From contig VCJN01002602.1 of NCBI GenBank assembly GCA_006384855.1, forward strand, positions 62,001-126,000: a DNA stretch of 64,000 bases, given 5' to 3'. Positions 29,301-37,317 of the stretch are shown in pieces; the stretch's first letter is position 1, and every line of letters starts with the position of its first letter. The DNA comes from Tetraselmis striata (taxonomy: Eukaryota; Chlorophyta; Chlorodendrophyceae; Chlorodendrales; Chlorodendraceae). The translations under genes and the position numbers were made by a program. The notes beneath the pieces are model-generated. The model ran no database searches and had not been told where the DNA came from. It saw only the letters and a list, made by a program, of their open reading frames with translations.

Positions 29301-32300
29301 CACCGTCAACTGCGCCGACCTGTTTGGCATGCAGGGCCTCATTGGCAAGGTCCGCCCCACCTCGATCGGTCTCCCCTGGCACAACTTCCAAGGAATGAAT
29401 GAATACAGGATAGCTTCCACTGCTACGGATGCCGACGCATCTCCGATTAAAAAGAGCATTCGTTATGATTCAGCTATAGTTTCGTATTCGTTTGACCTCT
29501 GGCAGACATGGCAGGTGTTGGACCCAGGGTACCCCGGTACCCTGAATCCGCTTTTCTCTCTGTGAAATCCGCTTTCTTCTGGCTGCCGTACCTGTGCCTA
29601 ATTTGGACCTTATGGCAGCAGTACGGCACCAAAGCATGGCACCTAGGCATCTTTGCCAGTTGGCCTTCTTAGACGGAGAGGTGTCCGTCCTAATTGACAC
29701 CTAGCCGGCTGGTATAAATTGCAAGCCTCGGCTCCTTGTAATTCAGTCAACTGCTTTTCCAGAAATATTCCGACTCACCCTTTCTCTCTCGTGACAGTGC
29801 CACTCAGCCATCACCACGGCGACAGCGACTACCTATCGTCCATCGCTCACGGCTCATAGCAGCCCTTTGCCTTTCCAGCTCGCACCTTGCTTGCTGGCAC
29901 TCGACGTGATTCGACGCGTGCACGCCGACTCTCGCCGACTCTCCCCCCATCAGTGACAGTGCCACTCAGCCATCACTTCGACAATCCCCTCCGACAGGTT
30001 TTTGGGCCCTCTCCTTTGGTTCGACGTCTTGCCCTGTGCTCGACGCCTGCCAGAGGCTTCAACCTGCGTGTATCTCGACCCTCGACAACTTTCGACGGTC
30101 GACGGCGCCGTGCGACGAGTTTTCTTCCCACCCGCCCACCCCTACAGTTATACATCCTCAAGCACAAGTGCGCCATCCCTTCGCAAATGTCTACCAGCAT
30201 CAACACCGGCATGATGAACACCCCCCTGGCCAAATCTGGCTCGGCAGAGTGCGATCAAGACCGACCCTGGCCACGCCCCACCACCTCCTGACTTCCGCGA
30301 TGATACCAGTTCTGACGACGCCTTCAGCATGGACGGGGCGTCAGACGATGACTCCGAGGTCGTCCAGCATATCAAGCCAGCTGCGGTGAAGCCGACACTC
30401 GACCTCAAGAACGTCCCCGTCTGGGACAACGCCATCTCTACACGAGACAACGCTCAAGCCATCAAGATCGCTCTCGGCAGCGCTGGCTACTTGGACACCA
30501 CCAAGGGCAAAGGCACCCGTCAGGAGCAAATGATCCTTCTGGCCGCCCTACGCCACGCAACAGCCCATTATCCCATGGCACTGGCCATCGTCAACAGCAT
30601 CAGCATGGATTCCAGGAAGTGTGGATACACCGCATGGAAGGCTCTTCTTACTGAGCTCCAGGGCTCAGCCATGGAGGAGCGTAAGCGCTTGGAGGAAGAG
30701 ATCACAGCGGGCCAGCTCCCGAATGAGCCGGTTCAGGTGTATGTTCGTCGCTACCAGAACCTCTGGAATCTGCTGAACAAGGCACATGGCCAGTGGACCT
30801 TCGAGTACGTGGCTGCCAACTACCTCATCCCAGGCCTTCACCCAGACTACGATCATATCGTCGACACCACCACCTCGGCGGCCACTGTCAACGAGAAGCT
30901 GGCGACCATCATCAGCGCCGGACAGAACATGGAGGCGCGCAAGCGTCAGCGTCAGCAGCGCGTCCGCGCGTGCCCGCCAAACCTCATCAATTCCTACAGC
31001 CCCAGGGACCCGCAGCACACCACCGGGCCCAGCGTTGTCTGCAGACGGTGTGACCGTCCGGGCCATACCCAGCAGCAGTGTGTGGCCAGGCGCCATGCCA
31101 ATGGCCTGCGTATCCTGGATGACACCACGCCGACCAGCACCATGACCAACCCTCGCTATGACCGCCATCAGCGCGCGCCTGCGGAGCGTCGCGTCAACAC
31201 CAACTATGGCCACCACCCGCGCGACAACTACCGCCATCGGGCGCCGCCAGGCCAGCCTTTCTACAACGACAACCGCAACAATCAGGACAGGCCCCAGCGG
31301 CAGCAGCATTGGACAAACCAGGGCGGCAACGACGGCATGCAGCGTCGTCAGCAGCCGGTCGGCTTCGTCTCCCCGGCTGGACATCAGCACCCGGGTCATC
31401 AGCAGGCCAGCGACACCTTCACCCAGCGGCCGACGGGACACCGGGAGGCCTACCCGTTCGTGGGAGTGTCCCCATCAGCACAACACCACAGCAGCCTGCC
31501 TATCATGCTCACCTGCAACACTACCGCCCCAGGAGGGGTGGACACCGGAGCACAGGAGGGGGAGGGCGAGGACAGCGCGGAGGATGACTCACATGACCCC
31601 TGGCACGTCCCCTACTCCGACTCTTATGCCGACTTCGAGTCCCCGTTCTCACACTCATGGCATGTTCACCGCTCCCGCCCTCACCCCGACGCCTTCCCAA
31701 TCTTCGATACCCCCGACACCTCCCCCCGCTGGAACGTTTACTCCCATCCCTACTCCCTCGATCCCCCCATCCACCTATTCGACATCAACTGGCAACGTCC
31801 CCACCCCGTCCCCACCCCAGCCCAACCCCTATGCCTCACTTCACCCACATTCCCCGCCTCGGCGGCGTTGGCATCCCACATTCTTCATGCGGAGCAAGGC
31901 GCCCTGCGTGGCGACCCGCCACCAACACTACCGCTCCTCACCGCTGCGCCAATCCTCCCGCTGCCAACCTCTCTGGTCATCGACCATCTCTTTTCGCCAT
32001 GCCATGGCCCATCGGCATCTGAAGTAGAGGCTCTGGTAGAATACGGCTTCACCATCCACAAGATCACCGGCGCCGACCCGTCGCCCGAGGCTCGTACTAT
32101 GTGGACGCATCGCCTACATGTCATCAGCAACAAGTACCCGGACCGTTTGCCCCCTTCAGCATTTCAGGACTGTCATGCCAGGACCCCCATGGACGTCAAC
32201 AACATCACTATCGCGGAGCTGGAGACCCTGCGTCCGGTCACCCTCATCGTGTCAGGCCCACCGTGTCAACCATGGTCGCGCGCTGGCTCACGCCTTGGCT

Positions 32301-35300
32301 GGCAGGACCATCGCTCTCGGGCCTTTGCTTCCGTCATCAGTTTCATCCGTTTCTACCTGACTACACAGCCCACACCGGTGCGCTACATTGTGGAGAATGT
32401 TCCAGGCGCGCTGGACTTCCCTGAGATACTCTCCTCACTTGGCACCGGCAACATCATGCGTGCGACCGCCTGCGGCTCGGCGGCTCACCGCGACACCCTC
32501 CTGTGGACCAATATCGCTTCGCAAACCGACGTTCAGGACTACATCAACAACATCAACGCCATCGAGCTCACCGACCCCGGCCCCTGCGCGTGGGACCTCT
32601 GTATATCTGAATTCCCCCACTTTACTCCAGTGGTGACAACTGACTACTTTCCGAAGTTCGTCGCCCGCCCCGGCTCATACGCTTTTCGCATGCAAACCAA
32701 CGGTCAGCCGGGCACTGGCATGGTCTACGAACATGATGGCCCCTGGTCCTGGGCAGACAACGGCAGATGGTGCGAGCCCCCTGCAGCTCTACGCGCTCGC
32801 GCCATGGGCTTCACCTTGGATGATCTGCCCACATCTCACCTTTCTGAGGCGACACTGCGCAAACTTCTCGGCGGGGTCATCGATCTCAACGTCATGCGCA
32901 ACTACATCAAGGCTGTCTCGGGCGCCGCCCCTTCCCCAGCCGTCATCACTGTCTGCCACACGTCATACGGCACCCTCATCACCAGCGATGGCGAAGCATG
33001 GGTACTCATCGACTCGGGAGCATCCTCTCATGTCAATGCCCACCGCACCGACTACATCTACTACATGGACATTCCTGCGGCGGAGCAATTTCTGGTGGGC
33101 GGTTTCGGGCAACCGGCAGTCGGCATCGGCACCACGCTGGCGCCAACACTAGACATCACAGGCAGGCCACATACCATTGTGGCACGAGACTGTTACCATA
33201 CTCCTGACATCACCTCCAGTGTCGGTCTCACCAATATCAGCCGCCTCCTCAGCACCCATCAACTCAGCAAGCAGGGCTACTCTTTCTACTTCAGCCGCCT
33301 CCTCAACAGCATGATCACCCCAGATGGTGCAGTCATCCACCTTCAGCCCTACCCCGGCACCACAGGCCTGTACGGCATCAAGCTCCTTCCCATCCGCGAT
33401 CCGTCTCATGGGGTCATGGCACTGCCATCTCCAACGGCCTCGTACTCCCTGTGGCATCTTCGACTTGGTCATCGCTGCGCGCGCCACATGGAGCTCACCC
33501 AACAACATGCCATCGGCGTCCCGAAACTCGGATCTGCCCCGGAGGCCATATGCCCGGCGTGCATTCAGGCCAAATCCCACCAGCAGTCAGTCAACCGTCA
33601 GCCCTCCCCACGCGCGGAGGCACCATACATGCTCGTGGTCATCGACGACTGGAAGGGACCTTGTCCGTCGGTCACTGGCGCGCAGCATGTTTTCGGCGCG
33701 GTGGATTCCTACACTGGAGTAAAGGTAGCGATCACCATGCGCACCAAGGACGAGGCCGTCCGCGCCGTCCATCAACTTCATGCGGCGGTTCTCGGCATGG
33801 GTCACACCGTTCAACGCATACGTGCCGATCGCAGCGCGGTTTATACCGGCTCTCCGTTTCGTCAAGCATGTGCAGACCTCAACATCGCGCTGGAGTTTAC
33901 CGCATCCCACTCTCATTATCAGGCAGGCCTGGCGGAGCGCTCTTTCCGCACTATCGGTGAGTGTGCCCAAGCCATGCTTCTCCACGCCGGCCTCGACCGC
34001 ACCTTCTGGGACTGGGCGTATCTTCACGCCGTCTATCTCTGCAACCGCCAGTGGAGCTCGTCCGTCAACGCCATACCTTACACGCTGATGACCGGTCGCA
34101 AGCCCGACCTCGCCAACCTGCATGTTTTCGGCTGTGTGGTCTGGGTCAACATACCTGTGACTATGCGGGCAGCCAAGGGAAAAATGACACCTAAATCCTG
34201 GCCGGGCATCTACGTTGGCCACCATGAGGACTCCGCTGGCTACCGCATATACAACCCGGCTACCAGGCGCGAAACGGTTACACGCGATGTCATCTTTGAT
34301 GAGGTGACACGACCCTTCTCCAGCACACCGGCACTCTCTATGCCAGTCTTCCAGCTCCCCGACGATGACCACCTGATGGATGAGCCGCAACCCTTGGACC
34401 AGCAGGAGGGGCCCCACGCGCCACCTCCCATGCCGCCACCCATGCCGCCGTCAGCGGCGCTTGCCTCCGCGCAGGAGGGGCCCCCACCTCCGCAGCCAGA
34501 AGGGACGTATCTTCCGCGTCATCAGGAGGGGGACGCCACAGCACTGCCAACTCCTCACTCCAGTGGATCAGCGCACATATCTTCTCCTTATGTCGACCTT
34601 AGCGACTACCACCCCAAGCTGGTAGCATCCGCCATCGCGGAGGTTGTGCGCCCCTACCCGGCGCAGATGGCCGCCCTCGCCCTGCCAGCACCCATTGTCC
34701 GCGTGTCCAAGGCGCCGCGCAACTACAAGGAGGCCATCTCCAGCAATCACCCCGATGACTGGAAACAGTCCATGGACCGAGAGATCGCCTCTATCACCAA
34801 GATGGAGACTTTTGTTTGGATCAGCATTCCTGAGCTTCGCCGTGACAACCCATCAGCAATCATCATACAGACGGCGTGGGCCTTTGCGGAGAAACAAGAC
34901 AAGGATGGCAACCTCATCAAGCGCAAGGCCAGAGTGGTTGTCCGCGGCGATCAACTTACTGCCGGCGAGAACTATGATGACACTAAGACCTATGCCCCAG
35001 TCGTCAGCTTCATCGCCTTGCGCACCACTATTGCTCTCGCAGTTCAACTTGACTGGGAGCTGTACCAGTTCGACGTCACCTGTGCTTTCCTCAACGCTAA
35101 CCTCGATGAAGATGTCTACGTCTACCCCCCCCCCCGGCTACGGCCGCAAGGATCAGGCTTGGAAACTCATTAAGGCACTCTATGGCCTGCCGCAGGCACC
35201 CAAGGCATGGTTTCTGCGCTTTTCTTCTTTTCTCCGTGACTTCGGCTTCGTCAGCTCCGAGTGCGATCCAGGCGTATGGACGCTGCTCGCAGTCGATAAA

Positions 35301-37317
35301 TCGCTGCTGGCCATCCTATGCGTCTACGTCGATGACATCATGCTGGCTGCCTCCCCGTCGTCCGACATCCGGGAGCGTTTTCAGACTTCTCTCTTCTCTA
35401 CGTTTGATGCAACTACTGACGGCCTATGCACCTGGCTTCTTGGCATGGCCATTGATCGCAAGCCGGAAGGCGTGCTCCACCTCCATCAGGAGAAGTACAT
35501 CAACGACATCTTGACTACCTTCAACATGGCGGCATGCGCGCCTCGCCGCCTACCCTGCACACCGGATACCGATTTTCATGACCCTACAGGCACGCCCCTC
35601 GACACCAAACTCTTTCCCTATCCCAATCTTGTTGGTAGCCTTATCTGGCTGGCTGTGGCATCACGCCCGGACATTGCGTTCGTGGTCGGCCGCCTGTGCG
35701 CCTACATGGCGTCCCCCACCGAGCGTCACTGGCAGATCGCCGTATCAGTGCTGCGCTACCTCAAGGGCACCCCCAACCATGGCCTCATTTTCCGGAAGCA
35801 ACTGGACAACGAGGCACCTGACTTCCTCTTTTTTGTGGACGCTGACTGGGCAACCTTCGTGCCCAAACGCCGCTCCACTACCGGCTATCTTGCCCTGGTG
35901 CATGGCACCCCAGTCGCCTACCGCGCGCAAGTTCAGAAGAGCGTGGCCCTGTCTACTGCCGAGGCGGAGTTTGTGGCGCTCTGCATGGCATGCAAATGTC
36001 TGGCGTTTATTCGCGTTCTTCTGCGCCAGCTCCACCACCCCACCACTGACCCAGTGCGGGTATGCGAGGACAATCAAGCGTGCATCGTTCAGGTGAAACA
36101 TGGTATGATTACAAGCGCGCAACGCCACATTGACCTCAAGTTTCAGTATGCAGCCCAACTCTGCCAAGATGGCGTCATCGACATGCACTACACGCCTACC
36201 GCAGACCAGCTCGCCGATTTCTTCACTAAGGCGCTGCCGCTGACTACCTTTCTTCGTTTCCGCGCTTTCCTGATGGGGTCATCCGAGGAGCCCCGTGTTG
36301 CGCCTCTGCCGCCATCAGTCTTGCGCCCGCGGGATTCCACAGGATGAGGAGGGGTGTTGGACCCAGGGTACCCCGGTACCCTGAATCCGCTTTTCTCTCT
36401 GTGAAATCCGCTTTCTTCTGGCTGCCGTACCTGTGCCTAATTTGGACCTTATGGCAGCAGTACGGCACCAAAGCATGGCACCTAGGCATCTTTGCCAGTT
36501 GGCCTTCTTAGACGGAGAGGTGTCCGTCCTAATTGACACCTAGCCGGCTGGTATAAATTGCTAGCCTCGGCTCCTTGTAATTCAGTCAACTGCTTTTCCA
36601 GAAATATTCCGACTCACCCTTTCTCTCTCGTGACAGTGCCACTCAGCCATCACCACGGCGACAGCGACTACCTATCGTCCATCGCTCACGGCTCATAGCA
36701 GCCCTTTGCCTTTCCAGCTCGCACCTTGCTTGCTGGCACTCGACGTGATTCGACGCGTGCACGCCGACTCTCGCCGACTCTCCCCCCATCAGTGACAGTG
36801 CCACTCAGCCATCACTTCGACAATCCCCTCCGACAGCAGGTTTGTATTCGCAGTATTCGTATACCCAGTAGTTTACCCTGCATTGAAAAACGCGGATGAA
36901 TTTGGCCCTAATTGTCCCGGTGAATATCTTCGAGCCAGCTCTTCGCCGCATAAACTAGAGTTTTGTATCACCGCACGCGCACAAACCCCGAGCAAAAAAC
37001 CGAGCTTTAAGCTGTGCGCCACGCATTACGAGGACTTGATTTTTCCTATCCTGGGGAAACTCTATAATCGCTCTTACCGCGTCGGCACCTGTAGCCTTAA
37101 TAACAAACTTGGTGTTTTTTTCTCGCTGAGGGACCGCCCGCATTGCTCCGCCGGGCAGGTGTCTCGAGGTCACTACGCCGACATGCTGGTGCTCAGCTTC
37201 AATCCGCTCGAGGAGTTTTCCAAGCTTGCGGACGCGGACAACATCTCGATGGTGTTCAAGCAGGGCCGCCTGGTGAAGGGTTCCTTTGACGAGGCGGACA
37301 TTGAGCTTCTTGGGTGA
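23668..37317 (+). CDS. Metal-dependent amidohydrolase (imidazolonepropionase/Xaa-Pro dipeptidase-like), 11 exons
   Basis: Exons read from the sequence: 23668-23796, 24104-24188, 24574-24713, 24890-24981, 25824-25977, 26652-26754, 27653-27719, 28714-28835, 28943-29082, 29248-29349 and 37159-37317. All introns are GT-AG and all phases fit; the product is 430 residues, normal for the family. Metal-site motifs appear in order: CDAHVHV (HxH), the Lys in HCIKIMASGG, the His in CAHAYM, the His in SIEHGNYLD and the Asp in YGSDLLGD. The C-terminal sheet reads SRGHYADMLVLSFNPLEEF. Members hydrolyse cyclic amide or dipeptide bonds; the substrate cannot be told from sequence. No targeting signal is obvious. 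The last intron (29350-37158) holds the copia element; its donor GTCCGC is weak. Confidence 0.9.
26222..26247. repeat. Poly-G run in intron 5
   Basis: About 26 G in a row. Introns of this gene also hold poly-C at 24037, 25021, 25706, 25989 and 26047, and poly-G at 27407 and 28250. Confidence 0.95.
26322..26355. repeat. (CT)n microsatellite in intron 5
   Basis: About 16 CT units. Confidence 0.95.
26925..27062 (+). repeat. Dispersed short repeat, copy 1
   Basis: Starts near gggtgctgacgcacc and ends with atttgacctgcggcaggaag. Related copies are at 29405-29515 (degenerate), 37490-37609 (inverted) and 37823-37955. No terminal features or internal promoter boxes were identified. Confidence 0.65.
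27084..27312 (-). repeat. Dispersed repeat, inverted partner of 13372-13600
   Basis: Reverse complement matches 13372-13600. It lies in intron 6 of the amidohydrolase. Confidence 0.75.
29516..29996 (+). repeat. 5' LTR of copia element
   Basis: 481 bp, one mismatch with 36355-36835. Confidence 0.97.
29711..29720 (+). promoter_or_regulatory. TATA-like box in copia 5' LTR
   Basis: ggtataaatt in the middle of the LTR is the likely core promoter; it is also present at 36550-36559. The transcription start was not determined. Confidence 0.55.
30329..36347 (+). CDS. Copia Gag-methyltransferase-Pol polyprotein (one frameshift)
   Basis: The frame from ATG 30329 runs to 35173, and the rest continues in another frame to 36347. 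The switch is an 11-C run at 35125-35135 where ten C would keep the frame. An earlier ATG (30187) plus an indel near 30245 may give a longer Gag. Domains by residue: Gag about 30-230; zinc knuckle CRRCDRPGHTQQQC 238-251; Gln/Pro-rich linker; C5-cytosine methyltransferase about 549-865; protease with DSGAS at 895; HHCC-DDE integrase with D1106, D1167 and E1203 (DX35E); RT with AFLNANLDEDVYVYPPP and YVDD (35324-35335); RNase H with VDADW, STAEAEF and CEDNQ. All catalytic motifs are present, so one base separates this copy from an intact polyprotein. Confidence 0.93.
31973..32923 (+). other. C5-cytosine DNA methyltransferase domain in copia polyprotein
   Basis: Residues about 549-865 of the polyprotein. 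Motif I region: LVIDHLFSPCHGPSASEVEAL. Motif II acidic residue: GADPSPEART. Motif IV: IVSGPPCQPWSRAG, with the catalytic Cys at residue 646. Motif VI: YIVENVPGA, with ENV at 689-691. Motif VIII-like: CGSAAHRDTLLWTNI. Motifs IX-X: LRARAMGFTLDDLP and then LRKLLGGVIDLNVM. The order and spacing match C5 methyltransferases; the HRxxxLWTN form resembles the DNMT3-like group. The domain is in one uninterrupted frame with Gag upstream and protease downstream, so it would be made as part of the polyprotein. Captured methyltransferases are published for retrotransposons of dinoflagellates and charophytes; this copy lies outside those lineages if the host is a chlorophyte. Confidence 0.9.
36341..36354 (+). 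promoter_or_regulatory. Polypurine tract of copia element
   Basis: aggatgaggagggg, all purine but one base, ends exactly at the 3' LTR. Confidence 0.8.
36355..36835 (+). repeat. 3' LTR of copia element
   Basis: 481 bp, followed by the gcagg duplication. Confidence 0.97.

Follow-up and report, generated by a model that had tools for sequence, protein, structure and literature searches.

DNMT3-type cytosine methyltransferase domains in Ty1/copia retrotransposons of the chlorophyte Tetraselmis striata

Why would a retrotransposon encode an enzyme that methylates DNA? Hosts use DNA methylation against retrotransposons, yet five or more copia families and one long interspersed nuclear element (LINE) in a single alga, Tetraselmis striata (Chlorophyta, core chlorophytes, Chlorodendrophyceae in the NCBI taxonomy), carry a methyltransferase. 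The question is raised by a stretch of 64,000 nucleotides from this species (contig VCJN01002602.1, positions 62,001 to 126,000 of the forward strand; hereafter the window, which is part of contig C2099 in the 224-Mb assembly that we searched), where a Ty1/copia element at 29516-36835 encodes a C5-cytosine methyltransferase domain between Gag and protease. Many copies of the element share this arrangement, and purifying selection acts on the domain. We think it fairly likely that the window holds a young insertion from a set of diversified copia families whose methyltransferase, of the DNA methyltransferase 3 (DNMT3) type, methylates element complementary DNA (cDNA) or the DNA of the insertion site.

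The methyltransferase domain and its class

A preliminary description of the window, made from its sequence, had proposed that a C5-cytosine methyltransferase is built into a Ty1/copia polyprotein, and the profile search that it called for bears this out. Residues 549-865 of a 1614-residue open reading frame (ORF) match the Pfam-A family DNA_methylase at E = 3.2e-10 (40.4 bits, cut-off 22), in frame between Gag and protease, and the full protein matches at residues 621-696 (E = 2.8e-9). The Pfam match spans profile positions 45-116 only, out of a profile length of 324, and the match to NCBIfam dcm (3.7e-9, 36.7 bits) falls under that model's own cut-off of 100.65. Once the domain is aligned with its relatives, motifs I to X of the C5-methyltransferases follow one another in order across it:

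31973..32923, + strand: DNMT3-type C5-cytosine methyltransferase domain (Pfam PF00145; profile of relatives against DNMT3A; tree)
31991..32008, + strand: motif I region, FSPCHG, atypical (alignment with relatives)
32258..32269, + strand: motif IV, PPCQ, residues 644-647, with the catalytic Cys 646 (sequence; Cys in 25/25 equal-length copies)
32393..32401, + strand: motif VI, ENV, residues 689-691 (sequence; in 24/25 equal-length copies)
32477..32512, + strand: motif VIII of DNMT3 type, SAAHRDTLLWTN, residues 717-728 (alignments, profile search and sequence)

Motifs IV, VI and VIII, as well as LLGG at residues 846-849, lie where the preliminary description had placed them. We considered that motif I might be lost and dropped the idea, the C-x-G of its loop being retained when the domain is aligned with its relatives.

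The class of the enzyme shows in motif VIII, in which S-A-A-H-R-D-T-L-L-W-T-N resembles the S-A-A-H-R-A-R-Y-F-W-G-N of DNMT3A and differs from the Y-G-x-P-Q of Dcm-type enzymes; the alignments show the form S-x3-R-x4-W-x-N in its place, together with the PC of motif IV and the ENV of motif VI. A single-sequence search of the PDB returned HaeIII (9.8e-5), a DNMT2-type tRNA methyltransferase and DNMT3B, whereas a profile built from ten related sequences placed DNMT3A at the top (7.8e-15), followed by DNMT3C and DNMT3B, with the DNMT2-type tRNA methyltransferase at 7.1e-10, HaeIII at 2.8e-9 and HhaI at 1.9e-7; DNMT1 was absent among the 47 matches of this profile at E up to 0.001. Within the ten-row alignment the Cys, the Glu-Asn and the Arg are invariant, and identity between the window row and the nine others is 26-40%.

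The preliminary description had also called for a tree. In ours, which has 23 rows with DNMT3 and Dcm-type sequences for reference, 13 element methyltransferases of copia, LINE and Gypsy type form a single clade (99/99), and a split at 100/99 places this clade with DNMT3 and apart from seven Dcm-type rows. Only pieces of DNMT3A and two proteins from phages represent the DNMT3 side, and a cellular algal DNMT3 could therefore sit inside the element clade. Within that clade are a copia clade (97/97), with families A and G (90/89) and F with C plus D (100/99) as its groups, and a LINE-type clade (89/94). Motif VIII and the tree rule out a Dcm-type enzyme or bacterial contamination, and it is close to certain that this is a DNMT3-type methyltransferase domain belonging to copia elements.

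Copies, selection and carriers

The preliminary description had reckoned with a chimera or misassembly should the domain be missing from other full-length copies. A search of the genome with the domain instead returned at least 128 stretches. Counting the window, at least 20 of them are full length with 97-100% identity, and 18 of these 20 are free of stops; such copy counts are lower bounds, and a frame-broken copy may yield several rows. Among 30 loci fetched (L009-L038), the 25 of equal length were scored for motifs, and the motif VIII Arg, like the catalytic Cys, is found in all of them. Eleven copies on different contigs, the window included, align through the Gag side, the methyltransferase and the protease-integrase region, and EukProt gene models of T. 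striata (P0001, 31 members) have the same architecture, which leaves a chimera or misassembly with practically no weight. The nearest database proteins reach 99% identity and bear T. striata names (jgi/Tetstr1 TSEL_...). The observation is more general than the window alone could show.

Selection was assessed as pN/pS, the nonsynonymous relative to the synonymous differences per site, by Nei-Gojobori counts pooled over pairs. Across all three parts of the 11 copies (55 pairs), pN/pS is 0.194 for the methyltransferase, 0.212 for protease-integrase and 0.558 for the Gag-side stretch, so that selection on the methyltransferase of the window family, family A, is as strong as on protease-integrase. 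For 20 stop-free copies of equal length the domain gives 0.283, with a median of 0.23 (190 pairs; L023, L028, L031, L036 and L037, which contain a stop, were left out), and for family C, described below, 0.290 (91 pairs, 14 copies).

A natural control is provided by a truncated subfamily. At least 39 further rows, counted by hand, match the domain only from residue 1 or 3 to 205-207, at 59-72% identity. In L039, which was read at length, the front part of the methyltransferase is fused to sequence downstream of integrase, and the copy therefore lacks protease, integrase and the second part of the methyltransferase. Among the 39, ENV is replaced in all 20 rows fetched, with the catalytic Cys lost in 12 and retained in 8, and in our own grouping EukProt proteins that match the domain up to residue 204 or 219 and cover the motif have lost ENV in 13 of 13 cases. 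We refer to this ENV-less set (L039, L106-L125 and like rows; the pol deletion was read in L039 only) as subfamily B, whose methyltransferase we infer to be dead and which is probably mobilised in trans. Over residues 1-206, pN/pS is 0.296 in 22 family-A copies that are stop-free there and 0.719 in 20 copies of subfamily B. Subfamily B is thus under much weaker constraint, which shows that the low value in family A does not stem from the sequence as such. The methyltransferase domain is maintained by purifying selection. The absence of a premature stop had been put down to either recent selection or very young age; each part of that statement stands, and in place of the alternative both apply, given purifying selection across copies and long terminal repeats (LTRs) that differ at 1 of 481 sites in the window insertion, which is young.

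The remaining features of the window element are as follows:

29511..29515: left target-site duplication, 5 bp, GCAGG (sequence; the same 5 bp at 36836-36840)
29516..29996, + strand: 5' LTR, 481 bp, TG...CA (480/481 bases identical to the 3' LTR)
30329..35173, + strand: ORF for Gag, methyltransferase, protease, integrase and the N part of reverse transcriptase, 1614 aa (ORF list, Pfam)
31040..31081, + strand: Gag CCHC zinc knuckle (intact C-x2-C-x3-GH-x4-C; Pfam zf-CCHC weak, E = 0.29)
33005..33031, + strand: aspartic protease motif LIDSGASSH (sequence; Pol_BBD weak, E = 0.12)
33386..33577, + strand: gag_pre-integrs (Pfam E = 7.4e-8, residues 1020-1083)
33620..33913, + strand: integrase core, rve (Pfam E = 1e-6, residues 1098-1195, 29.4 bits, under the cut-off of 32.6)
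34091..34312, + strand: retroviral SH3-like domain, SH3_retrovirus (Pfam E = 2.4e-22, residues 1255-1328)
34644..36347, + strand: overlapping frame with the C part of reverse transcriptase (RVT_2 E = 7.2e-20, profile positions 100-242; YVDD at 35325-35336)
34862..35137, + strand: N part of RVT_2 in the frame of the ORF (Pfam E = 1.9e-18, residues 1512-1603, profile positions 15-103)
36355..36835, + strand: 3' LTR, 481 bp (sequence comparison with the 5' LTR)
36836..36840: right target-site duplication, GCAGG (sequence)

The paired LTRs of 481 bp with TG...CA ends and one mismatch, the GCAGG on each flank, and the order protease-integrase-reverse transcriptase with an RVT_2-type reverse transcriptase, an order seen also in L040 and L062-L064, are those of Ty1/copia. 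A single frame had been proposed from Gag to reverse transcriptase. The Gag knuckle, methyltransferase, protease and integrase do share one, but RVT_2 is split between the ORF and the overlapping frame, so that the copy is frame-disrupted in reverse transcriptase, and the 5' end of Gag is, in a by-eye reading, out of frame relative to P0002. With its frame disrupted in both Gag and reverse transcriptase the window copy is probably not autonomous; open frames in sister copies reach 2162 aa. From its motifs we presume that the frame at 34644-36347 includes the RNase H region; Pfam reports no such domain there.

Four further T. striata copia families, C (L040), D (L064), F (L062) and G (L063, L060), carry a related methyltransferase upstream of the protease, and in D, F and G it directly precedes the protease. 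The 2299-aa frame of L040 contains CCHC, methyltransferase, protease, integrase and RVT_2; a Gag-side motif like a zinc knuckle was seen by eye in F and G, and the D stretch begins downstream of that place. With the family-C domain as query, at least 131 stretches were listed. In our own grouping 17 of these are full length with identities of at least 91%, two of the 17 being interrupted by a stop; 23 F-like stretches are nearly complete at 46-47%, and 20 G-like ones lie at 32-36%. Outside the genome, P0016, a 2106-aa copia protein on a 139.6-kb metagenomic contig from ENA, has the methyltransferase between CCHC and protease.

Other element classes are represented as well. The LINE L061 (G000:C2687:12000-21999) combines RVT_1, PCIF1_WW, DNA_methylase and RNase_H, in this order, within one open stretch of 3106 aa. 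The PCIF1_WW and DNA_methylase pair recurs in the database proteins P0017-P0019, and P0058 joins DNA_methylase to RNase_H; these look like pieces of L061-like LINEs (P0017-P0019 and P0058, like P0016 and P0043, stem from ENA contigs). The EukProt protein P0020 is of Gypsy type, with RVT_1, Integrase_H2C2 and rve. One copia, L065, has a 1561-aa frame and no methyltransferase.

The histories of pol and methyltransferase can be compared in part. The pol tree (8 rows, unrooted) recovers A with G and F with C plus D, at 100/99, and groups P0016 with F, C and D (91/93); it is compatible with the methyltransferase tree except for L065, which sits between A plus G and the P0016, F, C and D group. Such agreement is expected if pol and methyltransferase travelled together. 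No copia outgroup was found for this tree, under which the copia methyltransferases may reflect one gain and one loss or two gains.

Several observations concern the surroundings of these elements. The RVT_2 matches listed cluster on some contigs, which perhaps reflects nests or centromere-like regions; C1776, for example, has 7 of the rows, C805 has 6, and C440 and C1303 have 5 apiece. In viral_contigs, no retroelement carrier of the methyltransferase was recognised by eye among the at least 36 loci listed (no scan for reverse transcriptase was made), nor was a methyltransferase-less copia found there; the methyltransferases among the matches listed are mostly phage-like in our reading, and those of L070-L074 (IMG/VR contigs) have a DNMT3-like motif VIII, SAQNRKRLYWTN. 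The T. striata genome also has several Dcm-type methyltransferase ORFs, some 325 aa in length and scattered over different contigs (L001-L006 and L008, of which L001, L002 and L008 were read), beside which lies an opposite-strand ORF that, we assume, recalls DNA-virus or Polinton-like elements. At L007 (G000:C2385:454794-458405) a Dcm-type methyltransferase adjoins two ORFs, one resembling a large subunit of RNA polymerase and the other a transposase, a region that we presume may be an endogenous giant virus.

A possible use for the domain

The position of the methyltransferase and the selection on it suggest that it would be made as part of Gag-Pol and packed in the virus-like particle alongside reverse transcriptase and integrase. 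There it could methylate newly made element cDNA, which would be its simplest use, or else the insertion-site DNA, and an incoming copy would then pass as already-marked DNA, with consequences for its treatment by the host. The retention of key parts in many copies and in sister families suggests, as far as sequence can indicate, that the element benefits from the enzyme.

A number of results weigh against methylation of element DNA as the function. Family A has FSPCHG at motif I (LCAGATFG in C and LCCGGTLS in G, in the alignments), where the usual loop that binds S-adenosylmethionine (SAM) is F-x-G-x-G; SAM binding by the family A domain is therefore not assured. A structure model from a 13-row alignment, in which strands and helices alternate, would be compatible with a class-I methyltransferase fold, but its mean pLDDT (a per-residue confidence score) is low at 62, with a pTM (a whole-model score) of 0.64. 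The ratio of observed to expected CpG is 0.89 for the element, against 0.99 for the remaining window, and segregating C>T changes over 22 copies amount to 0.075 per site at CpG and 0.064 elsewhere, a ratio of 1.17; with depletion so slight and enrichment so small, there is no clear scar of strong CG self-methylation. C>T changes shared by at least two copies are at 0.029 at CpG and 0.011 elsewhere, and the CpG pattern is at most a hint of methylation; we tried CpG decay as a proof of self-methylation and found it too weak. Nor is the methyltransferase required in cis for spread, because subfamily B multiplied although its methyltransferase has neither ENV nor second half, and copia of the L065 type, which has no methyltransferase, is common (the 1561-aa frame occurs in about 45 of the 150 RVT_2 rows that were scored; only L065 was read). 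The enzyme may act in trans, or help against certain host responses only. Finally, two DNMTs from published retrotransposons, SymbioLINE and KnitGypsy, gave no methylation in yeast, a result that the authors call "inconclusive" in the part of the paper available to us (PMC5890265).

The altered motif I and the weak CpG decay would also suit a domain retained for a non-catalytic role, whether nucleic-acid binding or SAM-free chaperoning of the polyprotein. We regard this as unlikely, since the catalytic Cys and motif VIII Arg persist in every equal-length copy, the Cys, Glu-Asn and Arg do not vary even among rows as distant as those of the ten-row alignment, and constraint on the same segment is relaxed in the subfamily without ENV. 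An enzyme acting in the manner of DNMT2 on RNA, either genomic RNA or primer tRNA, instead of cDNA seems still less probable: the DNMT2-type tRNA methyltransferase is the best enzyme type after DNMT3A, 3B and 3C in the PDB profile search, and RNA methylation was raised for the Symbiodinium LINE by De Mendoza and colleagues (PMC5890265, as far as available), but DNMT3A scores better (7.8e-15 against 7.1e-10) and motif VIII has the DNMT3 form. The youth of the window insertion might suggest a neutral passenger, a recently captured piece of a host gene awaiting loss. That explanation is refuted in the main by a pN/pS far under 1 and similar to that of protease-integrase, by the relaxed control of subfamily B, and by related domains that occur in a metagenomic copia as well as in five T. 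striata copia families and whose tree largely agrees with that of pol, which points to long retention; we consider it very improbable. The set of methyltransferase-bearing copia families is probably old.

Methylation of element cDNA or insertion-site DNA thus remains the reading that we prefer, and a broader role can be suggested tentatively. Protein searches that might have shown a cellular DNMT3 in T. striata brought up element proteins for the most part, along with weak Dcm-like rows (one search covered the best 8000 candidates), and exon-like DNA_methylase matches are also present in the genome. Among the green algae in the MMETSP transcriptomes, Hoguin and colleagues identified none with a DNMT3, according to the available part of their paper (PMC9998398). 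It is possible, if rather doubtful, that retroelements house a DNMT3 lineage of their own. In green algae this mobile lineage could then be the principal enzyme of DNMT3 type and could mark element cDNA and perhaps host DNA as well; in the LINE a PCIF1-like domain would sit beside it. What an element gains from methylating DNA is a directly testable question, thanks to the built-in comparison that this one genome offers: some of its copia families have an intact methyltransferase, in one derived subfamily it is broken, and another family lacks it altogether.

Comparison with known DNMT-bearing elements

DNMTs linked to reverse transcriptase are reportedly credited to Iyer and colleagues (2011). 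In the accessible part of the 2018 paper, to which the following statements refer, DNMTs are described in LINE and DIRS elements of Symbiodinium and Gypsy elements of Klebsormidium, under purifying selection, and those of SymbioDIRS carried out de novo CG methylation in yeast; Symbiodinium copia elements have no DNMT (PMC5890265). A 2019 opinion paper, as far as available, reports Dcm-type sequences in Ty3/Gypsy and DIRS (PMC6338049). A 2025 paper in Mol Biol Evol, in one sentence that refers to the 2018 paper, assigns some DNMT3 members to "LTR Copia" and DIRS elements (PMC12344493). Because the cited paper describes Gypsy, and the available main text of the 2025 paper does not mention Tetraselmis, "LTR Copia" may be a slip. 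Apart from that sentence, we found no description of a copia element with a DNMT from Tetraselmis or any other chlorophyte in the open-licence literature, as far as available.

Like DNMT3A and DNMT3B, its best PDB profile matches, the T. striata domain has the characteristic pattern of motifs IV, VI and VIII; it differs from them in its altered motif I, its place within a polyprotein and the lack of a PWWP or ADD match in the Pfam scan. Among elements, KnitGypsy-Dnmt3 of Klebsormidium nitens is similar in that its element, of the LTR class, has an intronless DNMT3-related methyltransferase within the Pol ORF, under purifying selection with Ka/Ks < 0.2 (PMC5890265). It is set apart by its published description as a Gypsy element with a DIRS-like repeat structure from a charophyte (PMC5890265), whereas the T. 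striata element is a Ty1/copia from a chlorophyte, with simple LTRs, a 5-bp target-site duplication and integrase before an RVT_2 reverse transcriptase in place of the Gypsy domain order with RVT_1. SymbioDIRS-Dnmt3 and SymbioLINE-Dnmt likewise amount to hundreds of retrotransposon DNMT copies in a single alga, but in DIRS or LINE elements instead of copia, and SymbioLINE has its DNMT in an ORF upstream of the reverse transcriptase ORF (PMC5890265), whereas in the T. striata LINE L061 the DNMT follows reverse transcriptase and PCIF1_WW. The T. striata family shares with these systems a DNMT within an element ORF, many copies and purifying selection, and, as the preliminary description had anticipated, it is a case separate from the published ones in Symbiodinium and Klebsormidium. 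LINE, DIRS and Gypsy carriers of DNMT were already known; a Ty1/copia carrier in a chlorophyte is new, and extends the known DNMT-bearing elements to Ty1/copia and to core chlorophytes.

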